Of a DNA stretch of 64,000 nucleotides, positions 9,135 through 25,937 are shown piece after piece; positions within the stretch are counted from its first letter, which is position 1, and every line of letters starts with the position of its first letter. Made by a program: the position numbers and the translations under genes. The stretch is from Hyposmocoma kahamanoa (lineage: Eukaryota; Arthropoda; Insecta; Lepidoptera; Cosmopterigidae). The notes beneath the pieces were generated by a model, which worked only from the letters and a program-made list of their open reading frames with translations, ran no database searches and was not told the DNA's origin. The stretch covers positions 3,225,345-3,289,344 of the forward strand of contig NW_020653900.1 in the NCBI RefSeq assembly GCF_003589595.1, given 5' to 3'.

Positions 9135-9352
9135 GGTTTCATCCATATGCTGCTAGCATCTCGTCACAATGTTCCTTGCCAAGGCATTCGCCACAAAACT
9201 ATTCCTTGCCAAAATATTCGTCACAAACATCGTTCTTGCCAAAGAATTGGCCACAACAGCCTTTGTTGTCGGGGTTTCCACCAGATTGTTGCTGGCCAGG
9301 ATTCTGTGAATGCCCCATTTGTAGCTGTTGCCAATGTTACGGACCGTATAAG
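9135..9352 (+). CDS. COX6A-like gene A, internal Cys/Pro-rich exon
   Basis: The exon lies between acceptor gtgttttcag and donor aag|gtgagc. It enters in phase 1 and leaves in phase 0, exactly as exon 2 of gene B does. The 72 complete codons contain three imperfect decapeptide units (SLPRHSPQNY, SLPKYSSQTS, FLPKNWPQQP) and then a cysteine cluster (PPDCCWPGFCECPICSCCQC); nine Cys in all. It should splice in frame to the COX6A exon at 12262. The exon before it, expected to carry a start codon, a targeting sequence and a phase-1 donor, is not securely found. Candidates are the leader at 3112-3193 or an undetected exon. Support is splice signals, phase and composition; there is no independent homology. 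Confidence 0.72.
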
Positions 9353-9433
9353 GTGAGCTCTTCTCATATACAGTATGTGGTAGATCGATTTTCTTTCGTG
9401 CTTGTGATTTGAAAAAGGTAATTTTTGATCGTA

Positions 9434-10070
9434 AGTCTTATGCACATGGCGTATTTTATGCGCGTCGACGACGCAGATGACGTGCATCAACGCGTTTCAA
9501 TCACGATGCAGTCGCGGCTAGTAAACCTTTGCGCACGTTCACAAATTAAATGGCGCCGTAAACGTGCGTCATCTGCGCGCGTGCGCGCTGTAGTCGCGCG
9601 TATGTACCGCTGATTTTGATAGGATATACTTTTAATTTTAGTTTTGTTTGTTAATTTCAGATAGTTTTTGAGATGAAACTACTAAAAAAATATAAAATCA
9701 CTGTGTACAAAACACTGTGTCTTTTTAAACGTCACCAAATCATTAAGTAACTTACTGTTATAAATTATTGCTATTCGTTTTCGGGTGTATATTTTCAATG
9801 CATTGTTGTACTAGACACGAAGTGTGAAAATTATAAAGAATCACAGCAACAGTTGCCTTCAACATGAAATCTTAAGTGTATACTCCAGTTGAGTATATAA
9901 GCTTCTCGCATGCAACGCGATGTGCGATACAGACGAGCTTCTCGCGTGCGTCTGTATCGCGTGTTACGCGCGTGTGAATTGATACAAACGCAACAACCTG
10001 CTTTTTGAGCCTCTACGGCGCCGTAAATGCGCGTCATCTATGCGTATAAAATACACAGTGTGCATAGACT
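9434..10070. mobile_element. Foldback MITE in intron of gene A (637 bp)
   Basis: The left end agtcttatgcacatggcgta with ttttatgcgcgtc is the inverse of the right end (gcgcgtcatctatgcgtata ... tgcatagact). Arms are about 45 bases, imperfect, and the interior is rich in gcgcg palindromes. The boundaries follow the outermost pairing bases. Confidence 0.7.
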
Positions 10071-10363
10071 CTTAAAGCTTTTAAATCTTAGTTTCTGGCT
10101 AGCAGAAGTCTTTTTATACATACGCTATTGCCATTGAAGATCAGAACCCCAAGTTTTCTAATTTTAAATCATCTCATTTGTGTGTCAATGGCTTGATTTG
10201 GTACGTTCGGTATTCTGCTAAAAGTTAAAGAGTTAGAATTTTAATTTATTTTATAGACACTGTACATCAACAGTAGTACATCTACTCTTAGATAACAGTG
10301 TAACTTTACATTAGTATTGTATTTATATGTCTACCTATTACAGACGTACACAACATTTAATGT

Positions 10364-10399
10364 AATAAAATAATCTTAAAAAAAAAAAAAAAAAAAAAC
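10364..10399 (+). other. AATAAA followed by ~21-base A run
   Basis: aataaa at 10364 is followed 9 bases later by an uninterrupted A run (10378-10398), then caacaacaaag. This looks like the 3' end of a retroposed transcript. I cannot identify the parent sequence to the left. Confidence 0.45.
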
Positions 10400-12005
10400 A
10401 ACAACAAAGAACTTATGCAATTACTGGGGAAACAATTCGAGAATGTTGTTTTTGAAAACATTACAGGAAGAATGAAAAATGTCTATATCTATTCGAACGT
10501 TAATTTGGTTATAAGTGCAGGTTAATCTACATAGGTAGTGGACTGTGCAGAACTAGGTTAGTCCGGCATCGCGCTACTTTAAATATTTTGGTTATTTTAT
10601 GACGGGGGTTTTATAAGGTATGTTAATATTTATTTGGTTCAGAATATTGCAACATTTTATTGTATTATTTAGTTTACCATACAAAAATAGGAGGTCAGAT
10701 GATATTCGGCGATCTCTAAGCGTATTAATTTTGTTGTACAGGAGGCCTACTATGAGCTTATAAGCAATACATAAATTCATATCACGACATGCATAAAGTT
10801 GAACGGGAATGTCGAGGCAAGATGTTGAGTTTACTTTTTAAACATTAATTATTGTCTCTGCCTGGCTAGATGACATCTAACAAGAGCGAGATGGAACTAC
10901 ATACTAAATCTTATAAAAGAAATAGACAGATGTACTACCCTAGGAGCGTTCAAGCACTATTAACTGATTGTGTTCAAAATGATAATAATAATTTTATTAT
11001 TGTTTATAACGTTATATTGTAATATAGGCAAGTCCATAAAATTATTAAAATTATTAAAATACAACTTAAAAATTATATTCATGCTAATAATTTATGAACA
11101 ATGCTCTGTAGATGGGAAACTCAAACTAAACTATTCAAAAAAGTTGAAACTATTTATTAAGTAAATAGTATTTATCTATTAGGCTATATAGCTTAAAAAG
11201 ATAACAAATAATTATTAAACTGCAAATATAATAAAACTTAAACGAAATTTCTTAAAAATGTAACAAAATCTCACAGTTAGTCACGGAGTAACTTTCTTTG
11301 AATTGCTTATTTTGACAGATGAGACCGCCATGTGCATGGCAAATGACTCGTCATGAAACGATTCTACTATATAAGAAAAGATGAACGAATTTCAGGTGGG
11401 GTCCATAAACTGCATGGACAGTGAATTGTTTTTGTGAGGTCATAGTACGAATTGGACAGGCTATTCAACTTATGGTCTTAAACAGGATTGCTATAAGAGT
11501 TCATAGTAGGCGCCCTGTAACCTCTAATGTATGTCTATATGATATAACCTGACGAGAAAAAAGCTAGTTGTCTTGTAAACGCACATTGAATACTTTCAAG
11601 CCTTTGAAGGAGTACAGAATTATGATAATATTTGTTATTCTGCTAAAATGTGTGGTTGCAATGACAGTTGACTGTCAATAGAGTCTGTGGAAGGACAATG
11701 ATGGCATTAATTCGTTCAATCTCTTCCTAGACGTTGCCTTTCTAAAACTACCAAGGAAATTACTATGCATATGTTAATTTTTATCTCGTTTAGTCAGCAG
11801 TTCCGTCTTCAAAATAAATTTATTCTTTTATGTCAATTAATTAGTAGACTACACCATTGACGAGCAATTGACTCGCCACTGAAGCGGAATACCAAAAATT
11901 GCAATGGCAGTTGTATAGTAGCCGCTACTCCTAACTTTACCAGAATACCAAACATACAAAATCCTGCGATTGACACTATCTACACACATCTGAAATAAAT
12001 AAATA
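10400..12005. other. Intronic AT-rich stretch of gene A, nothing recognised
   Basis: Lies in the presumed intron between 9353 and 12261. I see no further exon or named repeat. Confidence 0.4.
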
Positions 12006-23999: not shown

Positions 24000-24172
24000 G
24001 ACCCGAAGTGGATCTTGGCCTTCGACACCAAAGTACGTGTCGGTCTTGTGCCAATTCCGACCATTCGGACACATTCAGTTCCTTTAGGTCTTTGGCGACT
24101 TCATCCTCCAGCGACATCTTGAACGGCCCACTGAACGCTGACCAGTAGGTTGCTCCAAATACGCTCTTTGTA
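24000..24172 (-). mobile_element. LINE C-terminal fragment, frameshifted
   Basis: On the - strand one frame gives RSVGRSRCRWRMKS and another EVAKDLKELNVSEWSELAQDR. Together they follow the LINE tail pattern GRP..RW.DEV..DL..L....W..LAQDR..WR. The 3' end is cccacgaagtaagtaagtat. Confidence 0.6.
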
Positions 24173-24179
24173 ACAAAAA

Positions 24180-25570
24180 CTAAAACTTACCTATATAAAA
24201 AAATTACCTATTTTAAATATAAGACTAAAATATATAGAAGTATCCATATCCATCTTAAATACTAAGTTTTAAGACAGATTTTTGAATATATGAATCCTAT
24301 CAATCTTAAAACAAAACCAGGAGGTCTACTCTCTTTCTTGAAAACGAAATTTAACGAAATTTAAACGAAATTTCGTACTCTAATTCTTTTTCGGTCGGGC
24401 TCAAGAATTTCGTTGTCTGAATGAATGATATTGTATAGGTCTTTTTTGATGTCAACTACCGTAAATGATGGTTTTTACTTTAATTTAAAATTAATACAAT
24501 TGTTTTGCTTTGTTTCTAAATTTTACATTGAATGTGTGATTTATTAAGCGTTTCTTGTACTATTTATTCGTGCAGAAAATATAAAGAAACAAATAAAATC
24601 ATATTTTTGACGTAACTAACCGGAACGCTAATACTCATTGTTATCCGATTTGTTTGAAGACTACCATTTCAAGCAAACTATAGGTGACAAAAGTATGACT
24701 ACAAAAATTTCCGTATATTAGAGGCTATTGTACTTATTGTATTCTTTGTAAACTTGTCGTACATAATATTTACATTATAAATATCAAAATGAAGGAATTT
24801 GAAGCTTTTGGCAAGATTTTTCGTAAACATTATCTCCTTAAAAAAGCAAAGATATAATGCAGTAAATTGATTTTATTTAATCAACTCGCACAATCTTTAT
24901 TTCCTTGGTTAGAACTTTATTTTGCACTACACAGCTTTTGATCTTCAGCCGGCGTGTAGAGCTTACGCTGAAGAAGCAGCTAATTCGGAGATAACCCTCT
25001 GCCAACTCGAGAACAACAATCGTGAGCTCGTTTCCATGACGTCTTTCTTTTCAAAGTGATAAGGGCACTATTTCTTGAGACTACTCTTCAAATAGAAATG
25101 AGCAATATGATGTGCAATAGTAAATTGCCGATTAAATTTGTAATTTCCTACAAACTTTTAAGTCGGGAATTTTACTTATACGTAGTTCGTGGCACTGGTG
25201 GCGACGACGGTTCTTTCTACACTCTGAACGTTCTTCACGCAGAGCCTCGATCAACAAAAGTATTGTTGCAGTCATTTCAATCAAATTTTTAACATAATTC
25301 GCATTTAAGAAAATCAAATGATCGCACTTTTGGTTTCATGAATTTGACATTATAATTCAGAAGATTTATCTGCCAAAATCAAATTCTCGTTGCGACGTTT
25401 TATGAATTAGAGTAAAGTAATGAAAAACGATACTTCAAACAAGTTTCGTTCGAACGAAATTTCGCAATGAAATAGAATTGTGGTAAGAAACGTGCGAAAC
25501 TTCGATGGAAATTTCGTTTTTCGTAGAAAGAGAATAGACCTTCTGTTTATTAAAGGACCTACAAATTTTT
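24180..25570. other. No further exon seen in intron 2 of gene B
   Basis: AT-rich. A small block of aaatttcg motifs (24340-24380 and 25440-25530) repeats loosely. No supported feature. Confidence 0.4.
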
Positions 25571-25580
25571 TTTTTTACAG

Positions 25581-25937
25581 AGTAAGTGTGGTCGTCGCAT
25601 ATGCCCTCCTCCATGCAGCCTCCCCGGTCCTATTCCATACAATCCATGCTGCCCCACTCCGCCGCCCCATAAAGGAGGCTACAAGAAATACAGAAACATT
25701 TTTATCGTAATGCTTCCAATAATTTTTTTACTATCACTCTACGCTTTGGGAAACGAGCCGCCACACAAAAAAACCTGCCGTGAGTATCCCTATATGCGAC
25801 GAAGAACTAAACGTTTTCCATGGGGAGACGGCAACAAAACCTTTTTCCATAATGATCATACAAATTCTTTACCCGAGGAATGTGAGCCTCCACCATTGGT
25901 CTGCGAACCAGCTGTAGTACCAGATAAACGTTGTTAA
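25581..25937 (+). CDS. COX6A-like gene B, terminal exon
   Basis: Residues 116-233 of the predicted protein. The acceptor is a long T tract ending ttttttacag, phase 0. Order: Cys/Pro-rich linker (SKCGRRICPPPCSLPGP, IPYNPCCPTPPP, 116-144), basic KGGYKKYRN, membrane segment IFIVMLPIIFLLSLYALG (155-172), then the COX6A intermembrane-space segment with RRRTKRFPWGDGNKTFFHN (188-206) and SLPEEC. The FPWGDGN and HN cores match canonical COX6A. Cys181 and Cys216, absent from ordinary COX6A, bracket the signature and recur in gene A. The tail adds two more Cys (LVCEP, DKRC). In complex IV this subunit faces the matrix with its N-terminus; here that side would carry the extension. ATTAAA at 26028 may end the transcript. 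Read from the ATG at 25710 alone it would lose the linker and basic region, so that start is rejected. Confidence 0.9.
   Translation, partial: SKCGRRICPPPCSLPGPIPYNPCCPTPPPHKGGYKKYRNIFIVMLPIIFLLSLYALGNEPPHKKTCREYPYMRRRTKRFPWGDGNKTFFHNDHTNSLPEECEPPPLVCEPAVVPDKRC

Follow-up and report, generated by a model that had tools for sequence, protein, structure and literature searches.

In this study we show that a 64,000-nucleotide stretch of the genome of Hyposmocoma kahamanoa, a Hawaiian cosmopterigid moth, carries two genes (A and B) that are members of a lepidopteran family of COX6A paralogues; the membership, and the separation of this family from ordinary COX6A in trees, is well supported. The stretch as a whole, which we call the window, covers positions 3225345-3289344 of contig C694 (NW_020653900.1). 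In both products an arm dense in cysteine (Cys) and proline (Pro) stands ahead of the membrane helix, and further Cys follow the helix. That two arm-bearing COX6A paralogues are present had been noticed in an initial annotation made from the sequence alone, and this observation is confirmed as real. COX6A is small and conserved, so a Cys/Pro arm in 16 named genera, and an arm exon of 601 codons in a further gene (gene C), are unexpected. We propose that these proteins form variants of complex IV whose arms, in sperm mitochondria, might attach to Cys/Pro-rich proteins of the matrix or become cross-linked to them, a reading to which we give a probability of about 0.5. Possibly the family points to an unstudied, sperm-related remodelling of mitochondria.

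Gene A corresponds to NCBI LOC113232497, a Hyposmocoma kahamanoa record named 'uncharacterized protein' (P0035 among our matches). Its three exons (Table 1), when spliced, give 289 residues with 27 Cys, identical to P0035. Gene B, spliced in silico, yields the 233 residues and 21 Cys that had been predicted, together with 34 Pro. The three junctions proposed earlier (9352/12262 in gene A, 18669/19627 and 19706/25581 in gene B) are right in the sequence, with GT..AG borders, and the exon phases, 1 and then 0, are seen in both genes. Against Pfam COX6A (PF02046) the last exons score 36.5 bits (gene A) and 41.2 bits (gene B), where the cut-off is 25, and the last exon of gene B matches solved COX6A chains with E values down to 2.4e-12. 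Predicted structures place a single helix ahead of the RTKRFPW motif, at residues 210-234 in the gene A protein and at 71-95 in family protein P0007. The AlphaFold2 model of the gene A protein has a mean pLDDT (predicted local distance difference test) of 55.9, with no predicted fold in the arm. The arms are basic, with 24 basic and 3 acidic residues in gene A and 16 and 3 in gene B. Between the third exons of the two genes the ratio of nonsynonymous to synonymous divergence (dN/dS) is about 0.27 (NG86) or 0.33 (YN00) over 108 codons, values that are rough since dS exceeds 1. By eye, P0037 (75 residues, from another source) is a near-copy of the last exon of gene B, and P0038 is a gene A-like piece.

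The same layout was found well beyond this genome. In a profile search 558 of 1133 candidate proteins scored at E ≤ 1e-6, and the best 120 of the 558 were considered; the statements on listed proteins that follow refer to these. The family consists of the 34 proteins, P0035 included, that score at least 159 bits. Below this threshold follow P0015 with 127 bits, two exon fragments of the A/B type with 119 and 111 bits, and other COX6A with at most 108 bits. Among the 34 proteins are 16 named genera, all Lepidoptera: Hyposmocoma itself and Achroia, Chilo, Cydia, Dendrolimus, Diatraea, Eumeta, Helicoverpa, Heliothis, Leguminivora, Manduca, Operophtera, Parnassius, Phthorimaea, Plutella and Tuta. 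Because the layout recurs in these 34 proteins, it is not a product of chance. The records are named 'uncharacterized', 'hypothetical' or just cytochrome c oxidase. In the literature, as judged by titles and the beginnings of abstracts and with subscription papers and supplements outside this coverage, we found no description of a COX6A gene with a Cys arm, and within the papers searched none dealt with COX6AL in fly testis.

In a first tree of the core domain, built from 33 listed family proteins and gene B (P0016, P0021, P0037 and P0038 omitted, P0055 lacking the motif), the 34 family rows stand on one side of a branch and 83 others on the other, with a Shimodaira-Hasegawa-like approximate likelihood ratio (SH-aLRT) support of 99. 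A second tree contained 29 of the others; here the 35 family rows, now including the H. kahamanoa locus L002, are supported by 96/92, or by 99/91 when gene C is added. The alignments behind the two trees have just 86 and 87 columns, and both trees are midpoint-rooted. Genes A and B group with P0001 in the first tree (93), gene A pairing with P0001 (87); in the second, gene A and P0001 are joined with 99/94 and gene B stands beside them without a resolved place. Constraint tests on the second tree gave an approximately unbiased P value (p-AU) of 0.178 for the family and the presumed Drosophila duplicate as one clade, which the tree itself separates and the test does not reject, and of 0.055 for the family and ordinary moth COX6A as one clade, which is formally unrejected. 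The Cys/Pro arm ending in NPCxP, the helix, the motif and the post-helix Cys are common to the family, and for this reason the arm must be far older than the duplication that gave rise to genes A and B. The initial annotation had stated that a fusion predates the duplication. The age stands, with the arm as a trait of the family; 'fusion' is too firm a word, since the arm follows the presequence, precedes the helix and may have lengthened where it is.

The Cys content separates the family from ordinary COX6A to a large extent. Ahead of the helix, presequence included, the 34 proteins and gene B carry 5-23 Cys (mean 7.5, n=35), compared with an average of 0.38 in 82 of the 83 other listed COX6A. 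The N-terminus of P0001 was read as intron read-through and that of P0021 as 5' over-extension, and without both the pre-helix minimum is still 5. After the helix at least three Cys are found in 35/35 family rows, where the other listed COX6A again have a mean of 0.38. Four Cys, that of NPC and three behind the helix, are invariant in 33 aligned rows, an alignment from which P0021 and gene B were left out; within this alignment gene A has both the NPCxP ahead of its helix and the three later Cys, and gene B shows the same when taken separately. The motif R-x-[YF]-[STAGNK], similar to the site at which mitochondrial presequences are cleaved, occurs within the first 45 residues in 23/32 members (counted without P0001 and P0021) and in none of 16 hand-chosen ordinary insect COX6A. 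Where members have this motif, the first Cys stands one to three residues past it in 20/23. The mean net charge of the family arms is +3.75.

Some results weigh against such a clear-cut picture. The Cys split is not clean, as six of the 82 others, several beetle sequences among them, have at least three Cys before or after the helix. These six are P0042, P0043, P0044, P0046 and P0058 with four or five and P0039 with three; P0100 has three after the helix. The strict presequence rule is passed by 11/32 members but by 13/16 ordinary COX6A, while the loose rule is passed by 28/32 and 16/16, respectively. Exons 1 and 2 of gene B lack outside support: no full-length homologue of gene B appeared among the 16 proteins that a search of 100 candidates (0.55-1.75 times as long as gene B) yielded, and no homologue of its exon 1, or of the open reading frame at position 3112 (ORF 3112), was found at E ≤ 10 among 57 candidates. 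We also noted that P0042, P0044 and two sequences of longhorn beetles, P0046 (Exocentrus) and P0058 (Anoplophora), have four post-helix Cys each, mostly in the C-terminal tail. In the tree these four do not fall into the moth family, and their Cys were perhaps gained separately.

One could argue that the Cys-rich exons were taken from other transcripts and that genes A and B begin just ahead of the COX6A domain. The missing outside match of gene B exons 1 and 2 would fit such an artefact. On the other hand, gene A is identical to the NCBI model, and as far as this model goes a splicing artefact for gene A was rejected. The named moth proteins likewise join start, arm and domain, and the phases fit. 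The clearest case is L002 on contig C733, a member of 150 residues with 88% identity to P0011 across the core, in which start, arm and domain lie in a single open frame; since this frame is unbroken, a splicing artefact is ruled out for the family. Thus we consider this explanation most improbable. The initial annotation had already raised the case of transcripts that begin only at the COX6A domain and omit the arm; this is ruled out for the family by L002 and is possible for gene B alone.

CC or CxC occurs in the arms of 27/32 members, a pattern CCPP..CxCP..C..NPC recurs, and complex IV requires copper. It might hence be that the arms bind copper or zinc instead of forming disulfides and thus store or sense metal next to complex IV. 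However, the spacing of the arm Cys is not fixed, the part ahead of the helix varies from 62 to 206 residues (P0001 left out) and the arm exon of gene C even has 601 codons, the arm shows no predicted fold, and apart from COX6A no significant Pfam match was obtained in the proteins tested, so that metal binding seems quite unlikely to us. We also consider it unlikely, though less so, that the arm is a tolerated, disordered passenger whose Cys/Pro richness results from drift, and that the importance of the paralogues lies solely in being COX6A isoforms of the testis type. In favour of this, the arm diverges fast in length and sequence, most in H. kahamanoa, and 97 of 100 expressed sequence tags (ESTs) of the duplicated oxidative phosphorylation (OXPHOS) genes of Drosophila come from testis libraries (PMC551531; for this and all papers cited below, our statements hold for the accessible parts of the texts). 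The invariant NPC and post-helix Cys in 33 rows, the presence of at least 5 pre-helix Cys in 35/35 and a gene C frame that stays open across 601 codons all speak against a mere passenger.

Five loci in the H. kahamanoa assembly match Pfam COX6A, namely gene A, gene B, L001, L002 and L003, and the last three also exceed the PF02046 gathering score. Gene C, of which L003 is the final exon, lies upstream of the window and is placed on a long branch in the tree. The naive chance of its 601-codon frame is about 2e-17, and the other five frames hold 21 to 54 stops. A first exon of gene C was not found, and the arm exon has no significant Pfam match. L001 (C694:3128874-3129101, about 96 kb upstream of the window) is a COX6A exon with the family-like sequence RDYEYMRRRTKRFPWG and without Cys; it may be a copy in decay or a variant that lacks Cys. 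When two ordinary COX6A proteins of Lepidoptera were used as queries, they matched only these five derived loci in the 728-Mb assembly. Ordinary COX6A may thus be absent from the assembly, may have been overlooked by the search, or may have been lost. That one derived gene replaced it in H. kahamanoa and now serves all tissues would agree with this result, but a lone gene may sit in an assembly gap or escape a first look, and four other moths (Manduca, Dendrolimus, Eumeta and Diatraea) retain both an ordinary COX6A and a family member. We regard such a replacement as very unlikely.

Genes A and B are not the only Cys/Pro-rich frames in this region. We scanned 260 kb around the window for open frames of at least 40 codons with 30-residue stretches holding at least 5 Cys and at least 4 Pro. 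Between 3128 and 3252 kb (about 124 kb) 12 such frames lie on the + strand and one on the - strand, compared with none on either strand in the flanking 136 kb. With 6 Cys and 3 Pro the counts are 8 (+) and 0 (-) inside and 1 and 0 outside; with 5 Cys and 3 Pro, 12 (+) and 2 (-) inside and 2 and 0 outside. For comparison, 20 single-strand sequences generated from the inner part by an order-2 Markov model contained 0-5 frames at 5/3 and 0-2 at 6/3. Thresholds and borders of the cluster were set after the first matches. Five of the 12 + strand frames are exons of genes A (1 and 2) and B (1 to 3), and the other seven have no COX6A domain (Table 1). A further + strand frame at 3134090 is a paralogue of that at 3140733 (E 1.2e-9). 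When the starts of gene A, gene B and five non-COX6A frames were examined by the strict presequence rule, 4/7 passed, three of them among those five, and gene A failed; the control value was 22/251 for regional frames. None of the frames 3134090, 3140733, 3163823, 3175069, 3217930 and ORF 3112 gave a significant Pfam match. The clustering of genes A and B with Cys/Pro frames appears to be new here. For gene C and the frame cluster the evidence, although good, is that of sequence without transcripts. The interpretation in the initial annotation is partly supported. It was right on the COX6A paralogues, their Cys/Pro-dense arm, the shared phases and the age of the arm, and too narrow in other respects: the arm is family-wide, the post-helix Cys are conserved too, and the neighbouring Cys/Pro frames lie nearly all on one strand.

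Table 1. Features of genes A, B and C and of neighbouring Cys/Pro frames. Plain numbers are window positions; numbers with C694 are contig positions.
Feature	Position	Strand	Remarks
Gene A exon 1	C694:3224638-3224938 (0.4-0.7 kb 5' of window)		Residues 1-100 at 3224638-3224937; GTAAGT donor
Gene A exon 2, Cys/Pro arm	9135..9352	+	End of codon 101 to residue 173 (P0035 residues 102-173 match exactly); GT/AG, phase 1 in, 0 out
Gene A exon 3	12262..12612	+	P0035 residues 174-289: arm end, IPYNPCCP, membrane helix, COX6A motif, three post-helix Cys, stop
IPYNPCCP of gene A	12325..12348	+	NPC invariant in 33-row family alignment
Gene A predicted membrane helix, residues 210-234	12370..12444	+	AlphaFold2; ten-residue pLDDT means 88, 95, 79 over residues 211-240
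Gene B exon 1	18405..18669	+	Presequence-like MLRTVNNIRSSLRSGLSNLIL... plus first Cys/Pro part; passes strict presequence test
Gene B exon 2, Cys/Pro arm	19627..19706	+	Phase 1 in, 0 out, like gene A
Gene B exon 3	25581..25937	+	Arm end, IPYNPCCP (25632-25655), helix, COX6A motif, post-helix Cys, stop
ORF 3112, 131 residues, 17 Cys, 61 Pro	3112..3507	+	CPPP repeats; within gene A intron 1, same strand; no COX6A domain
Gene C arm exon	C694:3211880-3213682 (outside window)		601 codons open; ends NQIPYNPCCP plus first helix half
Gene C last exon (L003)	C694:3215509-3215718 (outside window)		Joined in phase 0 to arm exon
Seven frames without COX6A domain, starts	C694: 3140733, 3163823, 3175069, 3178044 (48 codons only), 3195936, 3217930, 3228420 (ORF 3112)	+	

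Two candidates within the window were dropped. That gene A might start within the window, with ORF 3112 as candidate for its first exon, was rejected, the matching exon being upstream of the window; ORF 3112 has no Pfam match and its start fails the strict presequence test. The open frame 26622-26942 was considered as a further member and given up, as it has no Met and nothing above the Pfam cut-off. Between genes A and B a tRNA-like match of 37.7 bits (17779-17851, +) might be a short interspersed element (SINE) or a tRNA gene. By eye only, we noted remains of a mariner-like transposase (29997-30506, -) and of a reverse transcriptase (30925-31989, +), and at 1500-1860 tandem repeats with a unit close to CACTCAAAGG.

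From COX6A biology it might be possible to outline how such proteins work. The protein would be imported into mitochondria and its presequence cut just ahead of the first Cys, the single helix and the COX6A motif would place it in complex IV, and the basic, disordered Cys/Pro arm would point into the matrix, with the three conserved Cys presumably facing the intermembrane space. In developing sperm the arms might then, by analogy, be held to one another and to the Cys/Pro matrix proteins encoded nearby, either by binding or through disulfides. Complex IV and with it the inner membrane would thereby be fastened to a stiff matrix lattice while the mitochondria fuse and elongate. Testis expression and cross-linking of the arms are educated guesses drawn from analogy, and that complex IV is altered in sperm is still something we infer. 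More tentatively, and at clearly less than even odds, complex IV might be the anchor of a matrix skeleton in Lepidoptera. In that case a one-strand-biased cluster would encode mitochondria-targeted Cys/Pro proteins together with COX6A paralogues, whose arms (more than 600 residues in gene C) would connect the inner membrane of sperm mitochondria with a disulfide lattice; the result, built within the organelle, would be an independent counterpart of the mammalian sperm mitochondrial capsule. In any case the family offers a handle of named genes for asking what lepidopteran sperm mitochondria are made of.

That the arms might bind or cross-link matrix proteins in sperm is suggested because of several known systems. 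With COX6A itself (PF02046, complex IV subunit VIa) the family shares the helix, the RTKRFPWGDGN..FHN motif and a score above the Pfam cut-off; the ordinary moth form, however, has about 108 residues and is nearly Cys-free, whereas the family adds the pre-helix Cys/Pro arm and three post-helix Cys. Among the OXPHOS duplicates of Drosophila, which are testis-biased (PMC551531, PMC8950493), CG30093 (for COX6A) and COX4L are likewise second copies of complex IV subunits; for CG30093 the table row holds one EST, apparently from testis (PMC551531). The presumed Drosophila duplicates in our set (P0071, P0092, P0094 and P0098, picked by appearance and not by record name) have 94-102 residues, and P0071 and P0092 have no Cys-rich arm. 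In Pieris rapae, mitochondrial and respiratory proteins are enriched in apyrene sperm, and a cytochrome c oxidase subunit of unspecified type, PIERAPG00000006982, is among the apyrene-biased proteins (PMC13060016). A COX6A gene with a Cys arm is not named in the accessible parts of three sperm papers (PMC5712127, PMC13060016, PMC11288676).

Structural parallels come from other proteins. Cys- and Pro-rich proteins joined by disulfides make up the sperm mitochondrial capsule of mammals (PMC9956255), and the arms and cluster frames resemble SMCP and this capsule in their Cys/Pro-rich composition. The likeness is one of composition, and the mammalian structure is a capsule without a COX6A part. 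In Drosophila, deletion of the Cys-rich Mst84D cluster malforms the nebenkern derivatives (PMC10645079). This Mst(3)CGP cluster also comprises clustered genes for Cys-rich repeat proteins in spermatids, but in the accessible text its proteins have a Cys-Gly-Pro motif and are treated under axoneme assembly, with no part for complex IV. Knon, a paralogue of ATP synthase subunit d in the testis of Drosophila, shapes spermatid mitochondria and carries an extension, predicted to be largely unstructured, of 532 of its 734 residues (PMC5364652). It is an OXPHOS subunit with a huge disordered extension, as the gene C product with its 601-codon arm exon would be; it belongs, however, to another complex, and the extension is C-terminal and charged, with no Cys/Pro richness described in the accessible text. 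With the lepidopteran family one can also ask if complexes of the respiratory chain have a second role as structural anchors, a role that Knon suggests in the case of ATP synthase.

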